The notes under the pieces are model-generated. The model saw nothing but the letters and a program-made list of their open reading frames with translations. It did not search any database and was not told the origin of the DNA. From Methyloceanibacter sp. wino2 (GTDB lineage: Bacteria; Pseudomonadota; Alphaproteobacteria; Rhizobiales; Methyloligellaceae), in the NCBI RefSeq assembly GCF_003071365.1, contig NZ_CP028960.1:1364001-1428000 (forward strand): a DNA stretch of 64,000 nt, read 5' to 3'. Shown here piece by piece: positions 43,022 to 50,343 of this stretch (position 1 is its first letter; every line of letters begins with the position of its first letter). Both the position numbers and the translations under genes were made by a program.

Positions 43022-43747
43022 ATGCGCACAGTCTTGACTGCCATTGCGTTCGTGATTGCACTTAGCGGACAAGCCCGCGCGGGCGGCATGCTCGTCGCGC
43101 ACACGGAGTCGCCAACCCTTACGAACTGGACGGGCTGCTACGGCGGCGGCCATCTCGGCGGGGCCTGGGGCACGAGCGACAAATGGATCCCGCGCACGCC
43201 GGGCGGTGCCTTCGAAGGCGTGTCGCTGGGCGGCCACGACACGGACGGTTTCATCGGCGGCGTGCAGGCGGGCTGCGACGTTCAGCTGTCGAACGGCATC
43301 GTGCTCGGCATCGGCGGCGACTATGGCTGGACGGACGCGGACGGCACGCACCCGTCCGCCCGCGAGACCGGCGTGTTCTATCATAGCGAAACCGAAGGGC
43401 TCGGCGCGCTCACCGGCCGGCTCGGCTATGGTTTCGGCGACGTGCTGCTCTACGTGGAAGGCGGCGTGGCCTGGGAGCGCGTCTCATATGCCGCCTCGAC
43501 CACGCAGATCGGCACCGCCTACCGCGCCACGGACACGCGCGACGGTTGGACCCTCGGCGGCGGCGGCGAATACGCCATCACCGAACACGTCTCAGCCTTC
43601 GTCGAATACGCCCACTACGATTTCGGCACCGACCGCATCACGCTCGACCCGCAATACAGCTTCCTGCCGACGGCTTTCGTGGACATCGACGACACCGCCA
43701 ACGTCGTCCGTGCGGGTCTGAATTTGCGGTTTGGGGGTTGGTGGTAG
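43022..43747 (+). CDS. Outer membrane beta-barrel protein, Omp25/Omp31-like
   Basis: A 241-residue exported protein: signal peptide MRTVLTAIAFVIALSGQARA. Alternating hydrophobic strands follow, with WTGCYGGGHLGGAWG at the start, as in the eight-stranded Omp25/31 (porin-like) family of Hyphomicrobiales. LGALTGRLGYGFGDVLLYVEGGVAW and FVEYAHYDFG are typical inner-strand repeats. It ends in LNLRFGGWW; a C-terminal aromatic residue is usual for barrel insertion. There is no enzymatic motif. Confidence 0.87.
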   Translation: MRTVLTAIAFVIALSGQARAGGMLVAHTESPTLTNWTGCYGGGHLGGAWGTSDKWIPRTPGGAFEGVSLGGHDTDGFIGGVQAGCDVQLSNGIVLGIGGDYGWTDADGTHPSARETGVFYHSETEGLGALTGRLGYGFGDVLLYVEGGVAWERVSYAASTTQIGTAYRATDTRDGWTLGGGGEYAITEHVSAFVEYAHYDFGTDRITLDPQYSFLPTAFVDIDDTANVVRAGLNLRFGGWW

Positions 43748-44168
43748 GGACTAAACGCTCCGCCGTCATCCAAGAACCTAAGATCCGCTCAGCCGCGGCC
43801 CGGAAGGCGCATGATAAATCGTCGTGTTGCGGCTGAACGGGCGGCCAGCGAGCCCTGCCTGAAAGACCCGTTGGCGACCCCCTCCCACACCCTCCCCGTG
43901 AGCACCGACGAGGACCATCAGCACGCTAACAGCACACTGAGCACTATGAGTACCGCGCTGGAGGAAACAAGTCATTGAACTTACATGTGGTTTTCATTTT
44001 AGTATCTACCTAAGTCATTGAATTATAACAATTTATTATCCATAGTCCGATGCGTGGCTGAATTCGGGCTGCGGTCCGTGTCCATAGCGGAAGCTGCGTC
44101 TCGGAAACGTCCACAGGGGCCGAGGGTCCAAACCTCGGCCCGCCCTTAGACCCTATCGAGGAACGAAC
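43748..44168. other. Gene-poor spacer with an AT-rich tract before the TIR cassette
   Basis: 421 bases without a supportable gene. 43970-44045 is strongly AT-rich compared with the surroundings and carries two copies of AAGTCATTGAA (43969-43979 and 44012-44022). It probably contains the promoter of the downstream two-gene operon, though I cannot assign -35/-10 boxes with confidence. The last 50 bases hold a strong hairpin (44117-44141). Confidence 0.6.
44117..44141 (+). promoter_or_regulatory. Leader hairpin of the TIR operon
   Basis: GGGCCGAGG and CCTCGGCCC pair perfectly over nine bases around a seven-base loop, 27 bases before the ATG of the first gene. No T run follows, so it is not a standard terminator. 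It may protect the mRNA, act as an attenuator or bind a regulator. Confidence 0.5.
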
Positions 44169-44729
44169 ATGGTTAGTGTCAAAGCGGCAACCGCCATCGC
44201 GAAGAAGCAACTGGCATTGCGGGATCAACTCTGGCCACAGGCGGAATCAGTCATTTGGAATCGCAAGGCCAACAAAGGCTTCGCGACGATTCCAAAAACG
44301 ATGCCCATGATCCTCAGGATCATGGACGAGTTGGGTAACGGCACACGTCTCTCGGAGACGTACATGACCCTATGGTGCTCAACTTGGGACAATTCATTCG
44401 CATCACTCGCAAAGCAAAGGGACTTAGCCGTCGCCGCTGGATTCAGTGGCAGTCGCGCGGAGTACACTTGGCGCACACGTGCGAAGAAGCTGGCGGACCT
44501 GCTTTTCATCGACATCAAGGGGGGCAAGTCGGGACCCATGAGCCTCGCCCTGATCCACAACCCCCATCTGGTAATCCGCTGGCACTACGAACAACGCACG
44601 CCTGGACTCCTAGAGGATAGTTACAATGCACTCGTCGAATGGGCTCTAGACCTAGGCGCAAAAGATATGACCGAGAGCCCTTCAAAGGCTATGGATACGT
44701 TCCGCAAGGTCGCAGGAGGAGACGCATGA
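44169..44729 (+). CDS. Unknown protein, first gene of the TIR cassette
   Basis: 186 residues, soluble, basic at the N terminus (VKAATAIAKKQLALRDQL). I recognise no family. The middle has a helix-turn-helix-like stretch (RAEYTWRTRAKKLADLLFIDIKGG), a strand and then IHNPHLVIRWHYEQR, which could be a winged helix; this is a weak structural guess. The ATG follows a GAGGAACG ribosome site. Its TGA overlaps the ATG of the TIR gene (ATGA), with GGAGGAG inside its end, so the two proteins are made together. Codon usage is less GC-rich than in the neighbours, consistent with horizontal transfer. It may be a sensor, regulator or DNA-binding partner of the TIR effector. Confidence 0.75.
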   Translation: MVSVKAATAIAKKQLALRDQLWPQAESVIWNRKANKGFATIPKTMPMILRIMDELGNGTRLSETYMTLWCSTWDNSFASLAKQRDLAVAAGFSGSRAEYTWRTRAKKLADLLFIDIKGGKSGPMSLALIHNPHLVIRWHYEQRTPGLLEDSYNALVEWALDLGAKDMTESPSKAMDTFRKVAGGDA

Positions 44730-45433
44730 AGGTCTCCGAGCGCTTGGCTCTTGTCGATAAAATCGGTAGGGAACTACAAACGCGCTTCACGTTCGGCGAG
44801 CGCGATGACTACTTAACGGCGTGGGGCATCGCACGCCCAGAGAATGTGGGCGTAAACAGCAAGTGGGTGTATTCGCGTGCGGCGCTCGCTCCCCAGCCAC
44901 TCTCGAAGGTCATCGAGATTGCAGGCGACCTGGGGATCGACGCTGCAGGAACGGAGTCCAACGCTCCCGCAAACTGGCGAGACACAAAGCTATTCCGCCT
45001 GTTCATCAGCCACATATCCCAGGAGAAGGTCAAAGCCACTCGGCTTAAGGAGTGCCTAGCCACATACGGGATCAGTGGTTTCGTGGCACACGATGACATT
45101 CATCCGACCCTGGAATGGCAGGATGAGATCACGCGAGCGCTGTTTCATATGGATGCGTTCATAGCAATGCACACAAGGGGGTTCTCTGCCAGCACTTGGA
45201 CCCAACAAGAAGTCGGATTCGCCGTTGCGCGAGGAGTCAAGATTGTCTCGCTTAGAATGGGCGAAGACCCCACAGGGTTCATCGGCCGTCGACAGGCGCT
45301 TCCACGCTTGCAAAAGAGGGCAGAGGACATCGCAAAGGAGGTTCACGAGCTTCTCTCCGAGGACCCTCGCACCAAAGACCGTCTAGCGTCCGCCAAGACT
45401 TCCGCGATCGATGATGACGAGATACCTTTCTGA
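44726..45433 (+). CDS. TIR-domain protein, candidate NAD-cleaving defence effector
   Basis: 235 residues. Residues about 88-200 form a TIR domain: LFRLFISHISQEKVKATRL, a BB-loop region GFVAHDDIHPTLEWQDEI, then SASTWTQQEVGFAVARG. E162 in WTQQE aligns with the catalytic Glu of NADase TIRs (WVHKE in SARM1). Residues 1-75 form a small, probably helical N-terminal domain (ELQTRFTFGERDDYLTAWGI) that I cannot name; it resembles the adapter-type domains joined to defence effectors. The tail ends in DDDEIPF. Bacterial TIR proteins usually deplete NAD or make cyclic-ADP-ribose signals during phage infection; that role here is inference. It is translationally coupled to the gene upstream. Confidence 0.83.
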   Translation: MKVSERLALVDKIGRELQTRFTFGERDDYLTAWGIARPENVGVNSKWVYSRAALAPQPLSKVIEIAGDLGIDAAGTESNAPANWRDTKLFRLFISHISQEKVKATRLKECLATYGISGFVAHDDIHPTLEWQDEITRALFHMDAFIAMHTRGFSASTWTQQEVGFAVARGVKIVSLRMGEDPTGFIGRRQALPRLQKRAEDIAKEVHELLSEDPRTKDRLASAKTSAIDDDEIPF

Positions 45434-46058
45434 GGTCACTGGTAAGTTGGAGCGTGGTAACTCTCGGATTGACCTCTTGGGGTCTTAGTTCCAGATGACG
45501 CTTATCCCCCTCCCCCGAAACCTGCCGTACACTCCGTCCCATCCCTCGTTCGATGAGGACGCGAGCTGCAGACCGTCTGCTCTCGGGGCGGGGGACGCGG
45601 CGCCTGAGGAAGGTGCGGTAAAGATGGGCCGGATGAGAGAAGGCCCGGAACCCCGCATCATGCGTAACGGAACGGCCTCAGGGGCCCCTTACCTCCCGCC
45701 TTGGGCGGTGTCATCCAAGGTCCGGCTATGCGGGCTTGCTCTCTTGGGGCTTTGCCAAGAGGGCTCATACCGAACAGTACGAGATAAGCGGAGATGGGGG
45801 CTGTAATATCGCCGCGGCGTCGAGGGTCGCTTCGCGACACGTGATGCGAATTCGATACGCCATGCGGGGCGCCGGAAGGCTGCCCACCACAAAAATACGG
45901 ACGGCGGCCGACCAGCGCCCCGCACGTCCCTTCGGGACGAAGTCCCCGCTTCGCGGGTTTGAGTTTTGAGACGTAGGGAGACGAGTTCGTCGTCCGGGCG
46001 CACCCACGCGCCGGGGTGCTTTGGCGTGCGTCCTTCAGATGCGTGCGCGTCGAAAGCC
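45434..46058. other. Non-coding spacer with small hairpins and a dispersed repeat
   Basis: 625 bases. Open frames here lack plausible composition. It contains a 22-base motif shared with 49719-49740, a CGTCCC-TTC-GGGACG hairpin (45925-45939) and a CCCGC-TTC-GCGGG hairpin (45945-45957) followed by TTTGAGTTTTG, which could end TIR-operon transcription. Two imperfect inverted repeats surround CTTGGGCGG and CTCTTGGGG between 45700 and 45765. No gene is called. Confidence 0.6.
45555..45576 (+). repeat. 22-base dispersed repeat, copy 1
   Basis: GAGGACGCGAGCTGCAGACC followed by GT, differing at one base from 49719-49740. It lies in non-coding DNA downstream of the TIR operon. With copy 2 it flanks the alcohol dehydrogenase to epimerase-like block in direct orientation. 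Confidence 0.6.
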
Positions 46059-48976: not shown

Positions 48977-49529
48977 GCGCGTCCCTGAACGTATACGGGA
49001 TCAGGGGGCTGTCTAAGGGCAAGCGGTACTTGTCGGGGTCTTCGTGGTTGTAGGGCTGCGTCGGAAAGTTCACGACGACGCAGTCATGCGTTCCGATATT
49101 GTGGTCGGCGTGCCAAACATGGGTTGGCACGTTGACGAGTCCTCGTCGCTTCTCCGACAGCGTGATCTTTTGCACCTGTCCGAGCGTCGGCGAATCCGGC
49201 CGCACGTCATAGAAGATGAGGTCCATCTCGCCTTGCAGGAGGAAGTACCGGTCTTCATGGTGCTTATGCAGGTTCCAGCCTTTCGCGTATCCTGGCTTGA
49301 TCGTGAAGCTATAGGCGAAGACCAAGGGGTCCGGGTGCCAGTTCCAGCGCGGGTCAAACATTTCAACGACGCTCCCGCGCGCATCGATATGCGTCGGCAC
49401 GTCACGAAAATTCACCCCATGAACGCGCTTGCCTAAGCTGGCGCCTTGGGGCGTGACCATCTGGGAGTCCTTGACGGCATGCCGGAGTGTTTCCTCGAGA
49501 GCACTTATCTCGCCGTGATCCTTGCTCAC
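48966..49529 (-). CDS. dTDP-4-dehydrorhamnose 3,5-epimerase-like (RmlC-family cupin) protein
   Basis: About 187 residues. FRDVPTHIDARGSVVEMFDPRW and FAYSFTIKPGYAKGWNLHKHHEDRY are RmlC-like, with the His pair and the Asp/Arg region of sugar-nucleotide epimerases. VPTHVWHADHNIG adds a further conserved block. It probably remodels a sugar used by the glycosyltransferase that follows. Start uncertain: a GTG at 49529 with GGGAG 11 bases upstream is my choice; a TTG at 49553 is also open. No other nucleotide-sugar genes are nearby, so the rest of the pathway must be elsewhere. Confidence 0.8.
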   Translation of the reverse strand: MSKDHGEISALEETLRHAVKDSQMVTPQGASLGKRVHGVNFRDVPTHIDARGSVVEMFDPRWNWHPDPLVFAYSFTIKPGYAKGWNLHKHHEDRYFLLQGEMDLIFYDVRPDSPTLGQVQKITLSEKRRGLVNVPTHVWHADHNIGTHDCVVVNFPTQPYNHEDPDKYRLPLDSPLIPYTFRDARGW

Positions 49530-49846
49530 TTGTTGGCTCGCTCCCTTTGACAATAGATTTCTCGACGATCGCCACTAGGGAGAGTTTCACCTTTTTGGCA
49601 GTAGAGTCGAGGGGATCGAAATTGCGGGCCCCACAGTCAGAATAATCGGTGTGCAGACGCACAGAGTGCCGCCTTTGGTGACAAGCCCAGTAGTGTGATG
49701 CCACCACGCTTCGCCCAGGAGGACGCGGGCTGCAGACCGTTCGCGGCGCTAGGTCCAGGCTCTGAATTCCGGCGAAAACGCCAAGGCTCACTTTTTTGTC
49801 TGCTACTCTCGGCCCTGCGTGGAAACCCATTTTGGGGGAGCTGCTC
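49530..49846. other. Non-coding spacer
   Basis: About 315 bases of lower-GC DNA between divergent genes. The second copy of the 22-base repeat is at 49719-49740. An open frame on the minus strand (49402-49917) overlaps the epimerase-like gene and has no sensible composition. A TTTTTTG run near 49793 precedes the small open frame at 49847. I see no RNA gene. Confidence 0.55.
49719..49740 (+). repeat. 22-base dispersed repeat, copy 2
   Basis: GAGGACGCGGGCTGCAGACC followed by GT, one mismatch from 45555-45576, same orientation, 4164 bases away. Confidence 0.6.
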
Positions 49847-49945
49847 GTGAAGGGCTCGGACCTGAAAGTTTCAGACTTGAGAGGCTTAGACTTGGAGTTG
49901 ACATGTGAGCCGGGCATTGTCGCGATCGAGGGCGTTTGGACATGA
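49847..49945 (+). CDS. Possible 32-residue leader peptide coupled to the next gene
   Basis: The GTG start is preceded by GGGGGAG with seven bases of spacing. The peptide has an alternating Asp-Leu pattern (KGSDLKVSDLRGLDLEL) and ends GVWT. Its TGA overlaps the ATG of the next gene as ATGA, the coupling arrangement used several times in this window. No family is recognised. It could be a genuine small protein, a translational leader or chance. Confidence 0.35.
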   Translation: MKGSDLKVSDLRGLDLELTCEPGIVAIEGVWT

Positions 49946-50343
49946 CCGGATTTGGAACCCTAGGCGCGACGCTAGTCCTTGCTTGCGTCGGCTATTATTT
50001 GCCGCATGGTGCGGGAGAAAAGGTCTTTGCGGAGCTAACCGCAGCCGTCCACCACAACTTCGATATTAGCCGGGACGATATCTTTTTTTCGCCGGTGCGC
50101 GGCATAGAGGAGGATGTAGCGGAAGAAAGCGACAGTCTCGCGCCGCCCCTGCCGCAAGCGTACATCACGACGCGGGGCAAGACGTGGCAGATACGAAGCG
50201 TTGAAGGCGAACGCGACCTCGGTTTTATCGAGGAGCGCCCGGTGCCCGACAGGCTGCCACCCGATTACACACGCTTTATCAAATTGCGGGGCTCCTACGG
50301 GCTGTTCCAAGGCTCTTGCAAAGAAGGTCAAAACAGCAGGTGA
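49942..50343 (+). CDS. Hypothetical exported protein
   Basis: 133 residues. The N terminus has one hydrophobic segment (GTLGATLVLACVGYYLP) that could be a signal or anchor. The rest is soluble and acidic in the middle (EEDVAEESDSLAPPLP), then ITTRGKTWQIRSVEGERDLG. Nothing is recognised. GAGGGC lies nine bases before the ATG. The overlap with the short open frame upstream suggests coupled translation. A cytochrome gene follows after 130 bases. Confidence 0.55.
   Translation: MTGFGTLGATLVLACVGYYLPHGAGEKVFAELTAAVHHNFDISRDDIFFSPVRGIEEDVAEESDSLAPPLPQAYITTRGKTWQIRSVEGERDLGFIEERPVPDRLPPDYTRFIKLRGSYGLFQGSCKEGQNSR

Follow-up and report, generated by a model that had tools for sequence, protein, structure and literature searches.

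In a 64,000-nucleotide stretch of the Methyloceanibacter sp. wino2 genome (NZ_CP028960.1, positions 1,364,001 to 1,428,000; hereafter, the window), a small gene, p1, predicted to code for a winged-helix DNA-binding protein of a mobile-element family, is translationally coupled to a gene for a TIR-domain protein whose last six residues (DDEIPF) are identical to those of the host single-stranded DNA-binding protein (SSB). The SSB-like tail recurs among the relatives of the TIR protein, and behind p1 the effector gene is exchanged from one locus to another. The pair is a new combination of known kinds. Our preferred reading, to which we give a little less than an even chance, is that p1 is an element-borne regulator driving a TIR NADase that would dock on SSB-tail-binding proteins and abort phage infection. 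The original prediction for this DNA had described two coupled genes in less GC-rich DNA, a TIR domain with the glutamate of NADase-type members, and a partner that could not be recognised, and all of this was borne out. The two open reading frames (ORFs) of the forward strand, 44169-44729 (186 amino acids [aa], p1) and 44726-45433 (235 aa, the TIR protein), share an ATGA overlap at 44726-44729, and the GC content of 0.56 at 44001-45000 and 44501-45500 is the minimum of the 1-kb profile over the 64 kb (the next-lowest value is 0.573, at 49001-50000, and most of the window lies at 0.60-0.69). Neither ORF is a chance one, since homologues of both are present far beyond the source genome. The SSB-like tail is a feature beyond that earlier description. 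In window coordinates, the features of the locus are the following:

43900..43957, forward strand: six repeats of the GAGCAC type in an array, at intervals of 9-11 bp (candidate sites for p1 binding)
43968..43978, forward strand: first box, CAAGTCATTGA, found by the TAAGTCATTGA search
44011..44021, forward strand: second box, TAAGTCATTGA, which may supply the -35 part of the promoter of p1, with similar boxes upstream of many p1 homologues
44075..44091, forward strand: weak leader hairpin with a 5-pair stem and the loop GTCCATA
44117..44141, forward strand: leader hairpin with a 9-pair stem and the loop GTCCAAA, shortly before the region in which p1 starts
44169..44729, forward strand: p1, predicted winged-helix DNA-binding protein of a mobile-element family (AlphaFold2 model, Foldseek neighbours, plasmid matches)
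44726..45433, forward strand: TIR protein, 235 aa, with a helical N-terminal part (about residues 1-70), the TIR domain at 93-192 (Glu162), a short linker and the SSB-tip-like tail (PF13676, fold match)
45410..45430, forward strand: DDDEIPF, mimic of the SSB C-terminal tip (the host SSB ends in ELDDEIPF)

Residues 93-192 of the TIR protein match TIR_2 (PF13676) with an E value of 2.2e-11 and 44.8 bits, against a cut-off of 28, and Q161-E162 is invariant in an alignment of seven TIR sequences. Its structural model (pLDDT 73, weaker than that of p1) retrieved BtpA (2.0e-5) and AbTir (5.7e-4) through Foldseek and matched SARM1 too; these TIR structures include NADases, and the fold suggests that the window protein may be one as well. 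Its end, DDDEIPF, is close to the ELDDEIPF of the one SSB found in the host genome. Taking as an SSB-tip-like tail any acidic C-terminal tip that ends in (I/L/T)-P-F, we found it in 11 of 15 distinct TIR proteins, i.e., those of the window, L023 (with a near copy in L024), L101, L123-L129 and L131 (L numbers refer to the loci fetched). The seven aligned proteins range from 235 to 341 aa, and the stretch ahead of the tail differs among them while the tail is kept. Within the window, the TIR ORF is the only one with such a tail among 166 ATG-started ORFs of at least 80 aa; across all the fetched loci, which are a redundant set, 19 of 2,182 ORFs have it, including TIR copies, the host SSB and six other genes. 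The host SSB shares only the tip with the TIR protein, in which no match to the SSB domain (PF00436) was found at E <= 5. The acidic tip of Escherichia coli SSB recruits at least 17 partner proteins (PMC7145534, PMC10018359; papers are cited here by PMC number and from excerpts), and a TIR protein with this tip should compete for the SSB partners or be carried to them. No description of an SSB tail on a TIR protein was found among the open-licence papers listed, represented mostly by titles and the starts of abstracts, nor did a search of PMC13381803 (Hna), rich in “SSB,” give any passage with tail terms. It is quite unlikely, in our view, that the acidic IPF tail has some function that does not involve SSB partners (protein turnover, for example) or just reflects common origin. 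Four TIR relatives without the tail and two with a weak form of it, listed below, would fit such an explanation, but the tail persists where the residues before it vary in both length and sequence, and it finishes with the very six residues that end the host SSB.

As to the six non-TIR genes with such tails (L009:2397-3131, L020:1276-2139, L100:4789-5550, L044:6941-8002, L032:2700-3575 and L025:6014-6541), four end in DLDDDIPF, one in DIVDDIPF and one in LIDDLIPF. Five of the six are near p1, and by eye those of L009, L020 and L100 seem to form a single unknown family. To judge by these endings, the copying of SSB tails may be wider among such elements.

The effectors found behind p1 are interchangeable. 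We collected 87 loci with p1, which form 60 clusters at 90% identity, and counted the genes located up to 100 nucleotides (nt) behind it. A toxin- or defence-type gene was present there in 15 clusters and an unknown gene in 13 (eleven labelled, plus L028, with an annotated gene at +92, and L021, with a possible start at +8), leaving 32 with none labelled. Short unannotated ORFs were left out of this count, so that some genes may be hidden in high-GC loci. Every gene recognised within the 100 nt was of toxin or defence type, with none of any other kind. YafQ was behind p1 in 6 of the 60 clusters (identified through Pfam in L014, at 110 bits, and in the eight other YafQ loci by evident likeness to the L014 protein). 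The remaining genes, each in one cluster, were the following (with their distance from p1):

Window: TIR protein, ATGA overlap
L110: PIN_3, -4 nt
L116: PBECR2, +4 nt
L020: AbiJ, +20 nt
L085: AAA protein with a PADLOC Ppl match and a sub-threshold PHP match, +68 nt
L032: NYN protein with a HEC-09 match, +2 nt
L083: DUF3800, +12 nt
L091: 1334-aa protein with a sub-threshold AAA match only, -4 nt
L003:906-1413 (same-genus genome): DUF4917 gene split over two frames and apparently disrupted

A conserved 254-aa protein (L051:1791-2555), with no Pfam match above the cut-off, was also found behind p1 in a large group of viral-collection contigs.

The YafQ loci make it unlikely that p1 is the antitoxin of these toxins. 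As in DinJ-YafQ type II modules, all nine contain YafQ and a RelB/DinJ-type antitoxin gene, but here the two are parted, with the antitoxin gene running divergently on the far side of the p1 leader and p1 taking its place as the gene to which the toxin gene is coupled (the antitoxin was detected by tblastn, at E 3e-17 or better, in 8 of the 8 loci tested and by annotation in the ninth, L014). The PIN_3 locus is arranged likewise, its divergent gene coding for a helix-turn-helix protein (HTH_17). No RelB/DinJ-type antitoxin was detected in the eight non-YafQ p1 loci tested, among which L083 offers only 409 nt upstream and L093 gave one chance-level match elsewhere. A small gene coupled upstream of toxins could be taken for an antitoxin neutralising the protein encoded behind it, all the more as winged-helix proteins can be antitoxins. 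We consider this highly improbable for p1, because the YafQ loci keep a separate divergent antitoxin, and the PIN_3 locus likewise a divergent helix-turn-helix protein; moreover, one p1 family could hardly fit YafQ, PIN_3, PBECR2, TIR and AbiJ alike.

The pair lies in a variable, insertion-type site (43734-46044) between the genes for an outer-membrane protein (left flank) and an alcohol dehydrogenase (right flank). In a same-genus genome, G004, the two flanking genes share a contig, about 2.8 kb apart, with different DNA between them; in the DNA comparison, homology stops at about 43734 and restarts at about 46044. A profile search did not find p1 in G004, where the TIR gene was checked by DNA comparison alone. 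Directly 3' of the TIR gene there is a dispersed repeat (45501-45980), with copies in its own genome at 181831 (89%) and 558107 (70%) and further ones in many of the same-genus genomes searched; it had no Rfam match near the gathering score. The TIR family itself is found on plasmids, chromosomes and viral-collection contigs. It had been predicted that the pair is a defence module in which the partner acts as sensor or regulator. One part of this stands, as p1 belongs to a type that accompanies toxin and defence genes and the site is variable; the wider idea of a regulator placed before effectors of defence type is strengthened, though in about half of the clusters no gene was labelled behind p1. 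The other part, p1 as the specific partner of the TIR protein, did not survive the co-occurrence survey, a refuting condition named with the prediction itself: in 15 loci containing relatives of the TIR protein, each viewed with some 1.5 to 4 kb of flank, the p1 profile had no match, whereas p1 stands before many other effectors or none. A dedicated two-component TIR defence system, with p1 sensing the phage and turning its partner on, would agree with the translational coupling and with the TIR fold and its Glu162, but these absences and the unrelated effectors that p1 precedes leave it little probability.

At the thresholds applied, searches of Pfam, PADLOC, NCBIfam and PHROGs gave nothing for the partner, and its profile retrieved nothing among PDB chains at E <= 1. 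The AlphaFold2 model of p1 (pLDDT 89) has the helix and strand order of a winged helix. In Foldseek, most of the nearest PDB and viral structures were either winged-helix regulators or proteins of the phage replication type, with no match at E <= 0.001. Upstream, the chain of six repeats in the window compares with at most 2 in 200 dinucleotide shuffles. The GAGCAC motif was picked by eye after viewing the leaders, and scanning 400 nt of each gave chains of at least 3 in 28 of 47 p1 leaders and of at least 4 in 19. This arrangement suggests that p1 may bind the array. A search for TAAGTCATTGA with up to one mismatch gave just the two boxes in the 64 kb (0.26 places expected; two or more in 3 of 100 shuffles), the second of which may be part of the p1 promoter. 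Hairpins with the loop NTCCANA and a stem of at least 6 pairs number 21, in 14 of the 47 leaders and all in the sense of p1, when 0.05 would be expected from mononucleotide shuffles. If the loop is not preset, GTCCAAA is by far the commonest 7-nt loop on stems of at least 7 pairs (14 cases), followed by GTCCACA (4), and the stem pairs vary between leaders. It should be noted that the array and hairpin counts are not independent, because the leaders are related. The hairpins do not appear to be general genome repeats, GGTCCAAACC occurring four times in the genome and just one of these copies, that upstream of p1, lying in such a hairpin, nor a known RNA family, as no Rfam match near the leader comes close to the gathering score. 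The GUCCAAA loop at 44117-44141 presumably resembles the anticodon loop of tRNA-Trp, with a poor fit at its first and sixth positions.

Among species-level genomes p1 is rare. With the own genome included in each set, there was a strong match in 3 of 385 genomes at the class level (plus four weak ones), and p1 was found in 5 of 398 genomes of the phylum and 5 of 307 of the order. By tblastn (E <= 1e-5), it is present in 164 of 72,556 plasmid records. In phage records there was one convincing match, Burkholderia phage Musica, and the seven other records had an E value of 0.9; scans of viral contigs with a single p1 or a single TIR protein as query confirmed no relative. With the p1 region of a single small E. 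coli plasmid as query, 10 of 5,426 E. coli genomes contained at least 80% of it and 22 gave any match, some of these covering just 6% of the query; all 26 places are plasmid-borne. Iteron-like repeats and the replication-type fold neighbours brought up the idea of p1 as the sole or needed replication initiator. It was rejected for the plasmids on which other replication functions were seen, namely, the ColE1 RNAI in 4 of 10 loci scanned (L017, L018, L029 and L030) and the annotated RepM of L119 and RepA of L015.

This plasmid distribution makes StbA of R388 a natural comparison. It, too, is a small protein of plasmids; it binds DNA, as predicted for p1, and its own promoter carries 9-bp direct repeats in sets, in the excerpts of PMC3098194. 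Such repeats are found upstream of p1 as well (9-11 bp apart), but they are GAGCAC-like, while those of StbA (stbDR) are TTGCATCAT with two-base spacing, and p1 can carry effector genes. StbA is absent among the best 50 of 528 Foldseek matches of p1, no direct comparison of the two having been made. It may be that p1 is a plasmid-maintenance or transfer protein of this sort, with the effector genes as passengers on its promoter and the TIR protein acting alone. The plasmid records, the 9-bp promoter repeats, the mobQ genes near p1 in L021, L113, L118 and L119, and the 32 of 60 clusters without a labelled effector are in its favour. We regard it as the less likely explanation, though one to be taken seriously, since the p1 profile had no PDB match and there was no strong fold match, chromosomal copies of p1 exist (e.g., in the window), and the recurrent position before toxins and defence genes, with the antitoxin left across the array, needs more than passenger status. 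Another point of comparison is the WYL-domain family BrxR/CapW, in which, as with p1, one regulator family accompanies many unrelated defence systems (48% of BrxR homologues are so placed, in the excerpts of PMC9122601). However, p1 has no WYL match at E <= 5, and WYL is missing from the family matches listed at E <= 1 for 33 p1 proteins. BrxR binds inverted repeats (PMC9122601), whereas the candidate site of p1 is a 9-bp direct repeat array; p1 also differs in its translational coupling to single effectors and in the leader hairpins of part of its family. As far as the comparisons were made, p1 could be assigned to neither BrxR/CapW nor StbA.

In the reading that we prefer, the locus would be a mobile cassette of two independent modules. 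The first would be p1 with its own leader, i.e., the 9-bp repeat array, the promoter-like box and, in part of the family, the GUCCANA-loop hairpins; the 3' end of p1 would be where toxins and single-gene defence effectors dock, one in place of another, to be read via translational coupling. Probably, p1 binds the array and so keeps its own operon, and hence the effector, at low or conditional expression. The second module, the effector of the window copy, would be a TIR NADase from a family in which a variable linker leads up to an SSB-tip mimic. Through this tail the protein probably docks on SSB-tail-pocket proteins at replication or recombination sites, and when a phage alters these proteins or brings its own, the TIR domains would assemble, NAD+ would be consumed and the infection aborted. 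Some bacterial TIR proteins are NADases in phage defence (SpbK, in the excerpts of PMC12847820), and it is plausible that infection could be read at the SSB axis, given that phage SSB triggers Retron-Eco8 (excerpts of PMC12887533). Together with the known partners of the SSB tip, these precedents lead us to suggest that the TIR protein would be a tail-docked abortive-infection effector and p1 an autoregulated expression setter. A rather unlikely variant has the TIR protein as a bait sensor, its SSB-tip copy attracting those proteins of the phage (annealing recombinases, replication mediators) that take hold of the SSB tails of the host, and their binding would assemble the NADase. There, p1 would be the core of a capture cassette that removes toxins from the control of antitoxin operons and places them, with single-gene defences, under one element-borne array/hairpin switch.

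Several observations weigh against our preferred reading, that of a p1-driven TIR protein docking through its tail. The tail is absent in 4 of the 15 TIR proteins (L025, L026, L132 and L133), two of the eleven tails are weak (YHELPF in L125 and SEAIPF in L128), and up to five further plasmid TIR matches are outside the 15-protein count. It is not peculiar to TIR proteins either, because other genes in the fetched loci have it. In the data examined, p1 and a TIR gene are together at the window locus only. With 32 of the 60 clusters lacking a labelled gene up to 100 nt behind p1, it must also serve the element without an effector. As for the leader, the repeat chain is 2 in 13 of 47 cases, a value that shuffles often reach, and 1 or 0 in six, while hairpins of at least 6 pairs are absent from 33 of the 47, including the YafQ and enterobacterial leaders examined.

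With regard to known systems built on the same themes, the window TIR protein shares its superfamily with the ThsB/ThcB proteins of Thoeris. Its best curated model was ThcB4, at 47 bits against a curated cut-off of 220, and the best PADLOC one was ThsB, at 30.6 bits; by cut-off, it is not a Thoeris protein. It also differs in the gene coupled to it, p1, and in its SSB-like tail. No Thoeris model matched p1, the other neighbours of the TIR gene having been viewed as ORFs and not searched singly, and no paper on “Type III Thoeris” was found in the open-licence literature. Retron-Eco8 has in common with our proposal the SSB axis as infection signal, but there SSB itself triggers a retron-nuclease complex (PMC12887533, excerpts), whereas the window TIR effector carries a copy of the SSB tip.

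There are few systems in which it is known how a bacterial TIR enzyme is directed to an infection, and a conserved copy of the SSB tip is a concrete and testable answer to this question of targeting. A p1 family with toxins and defence effectors exchanged behind a single leader would, in turn, be a handle for further effectors, 13 of the 60 clusters having an unknown gene at this position.
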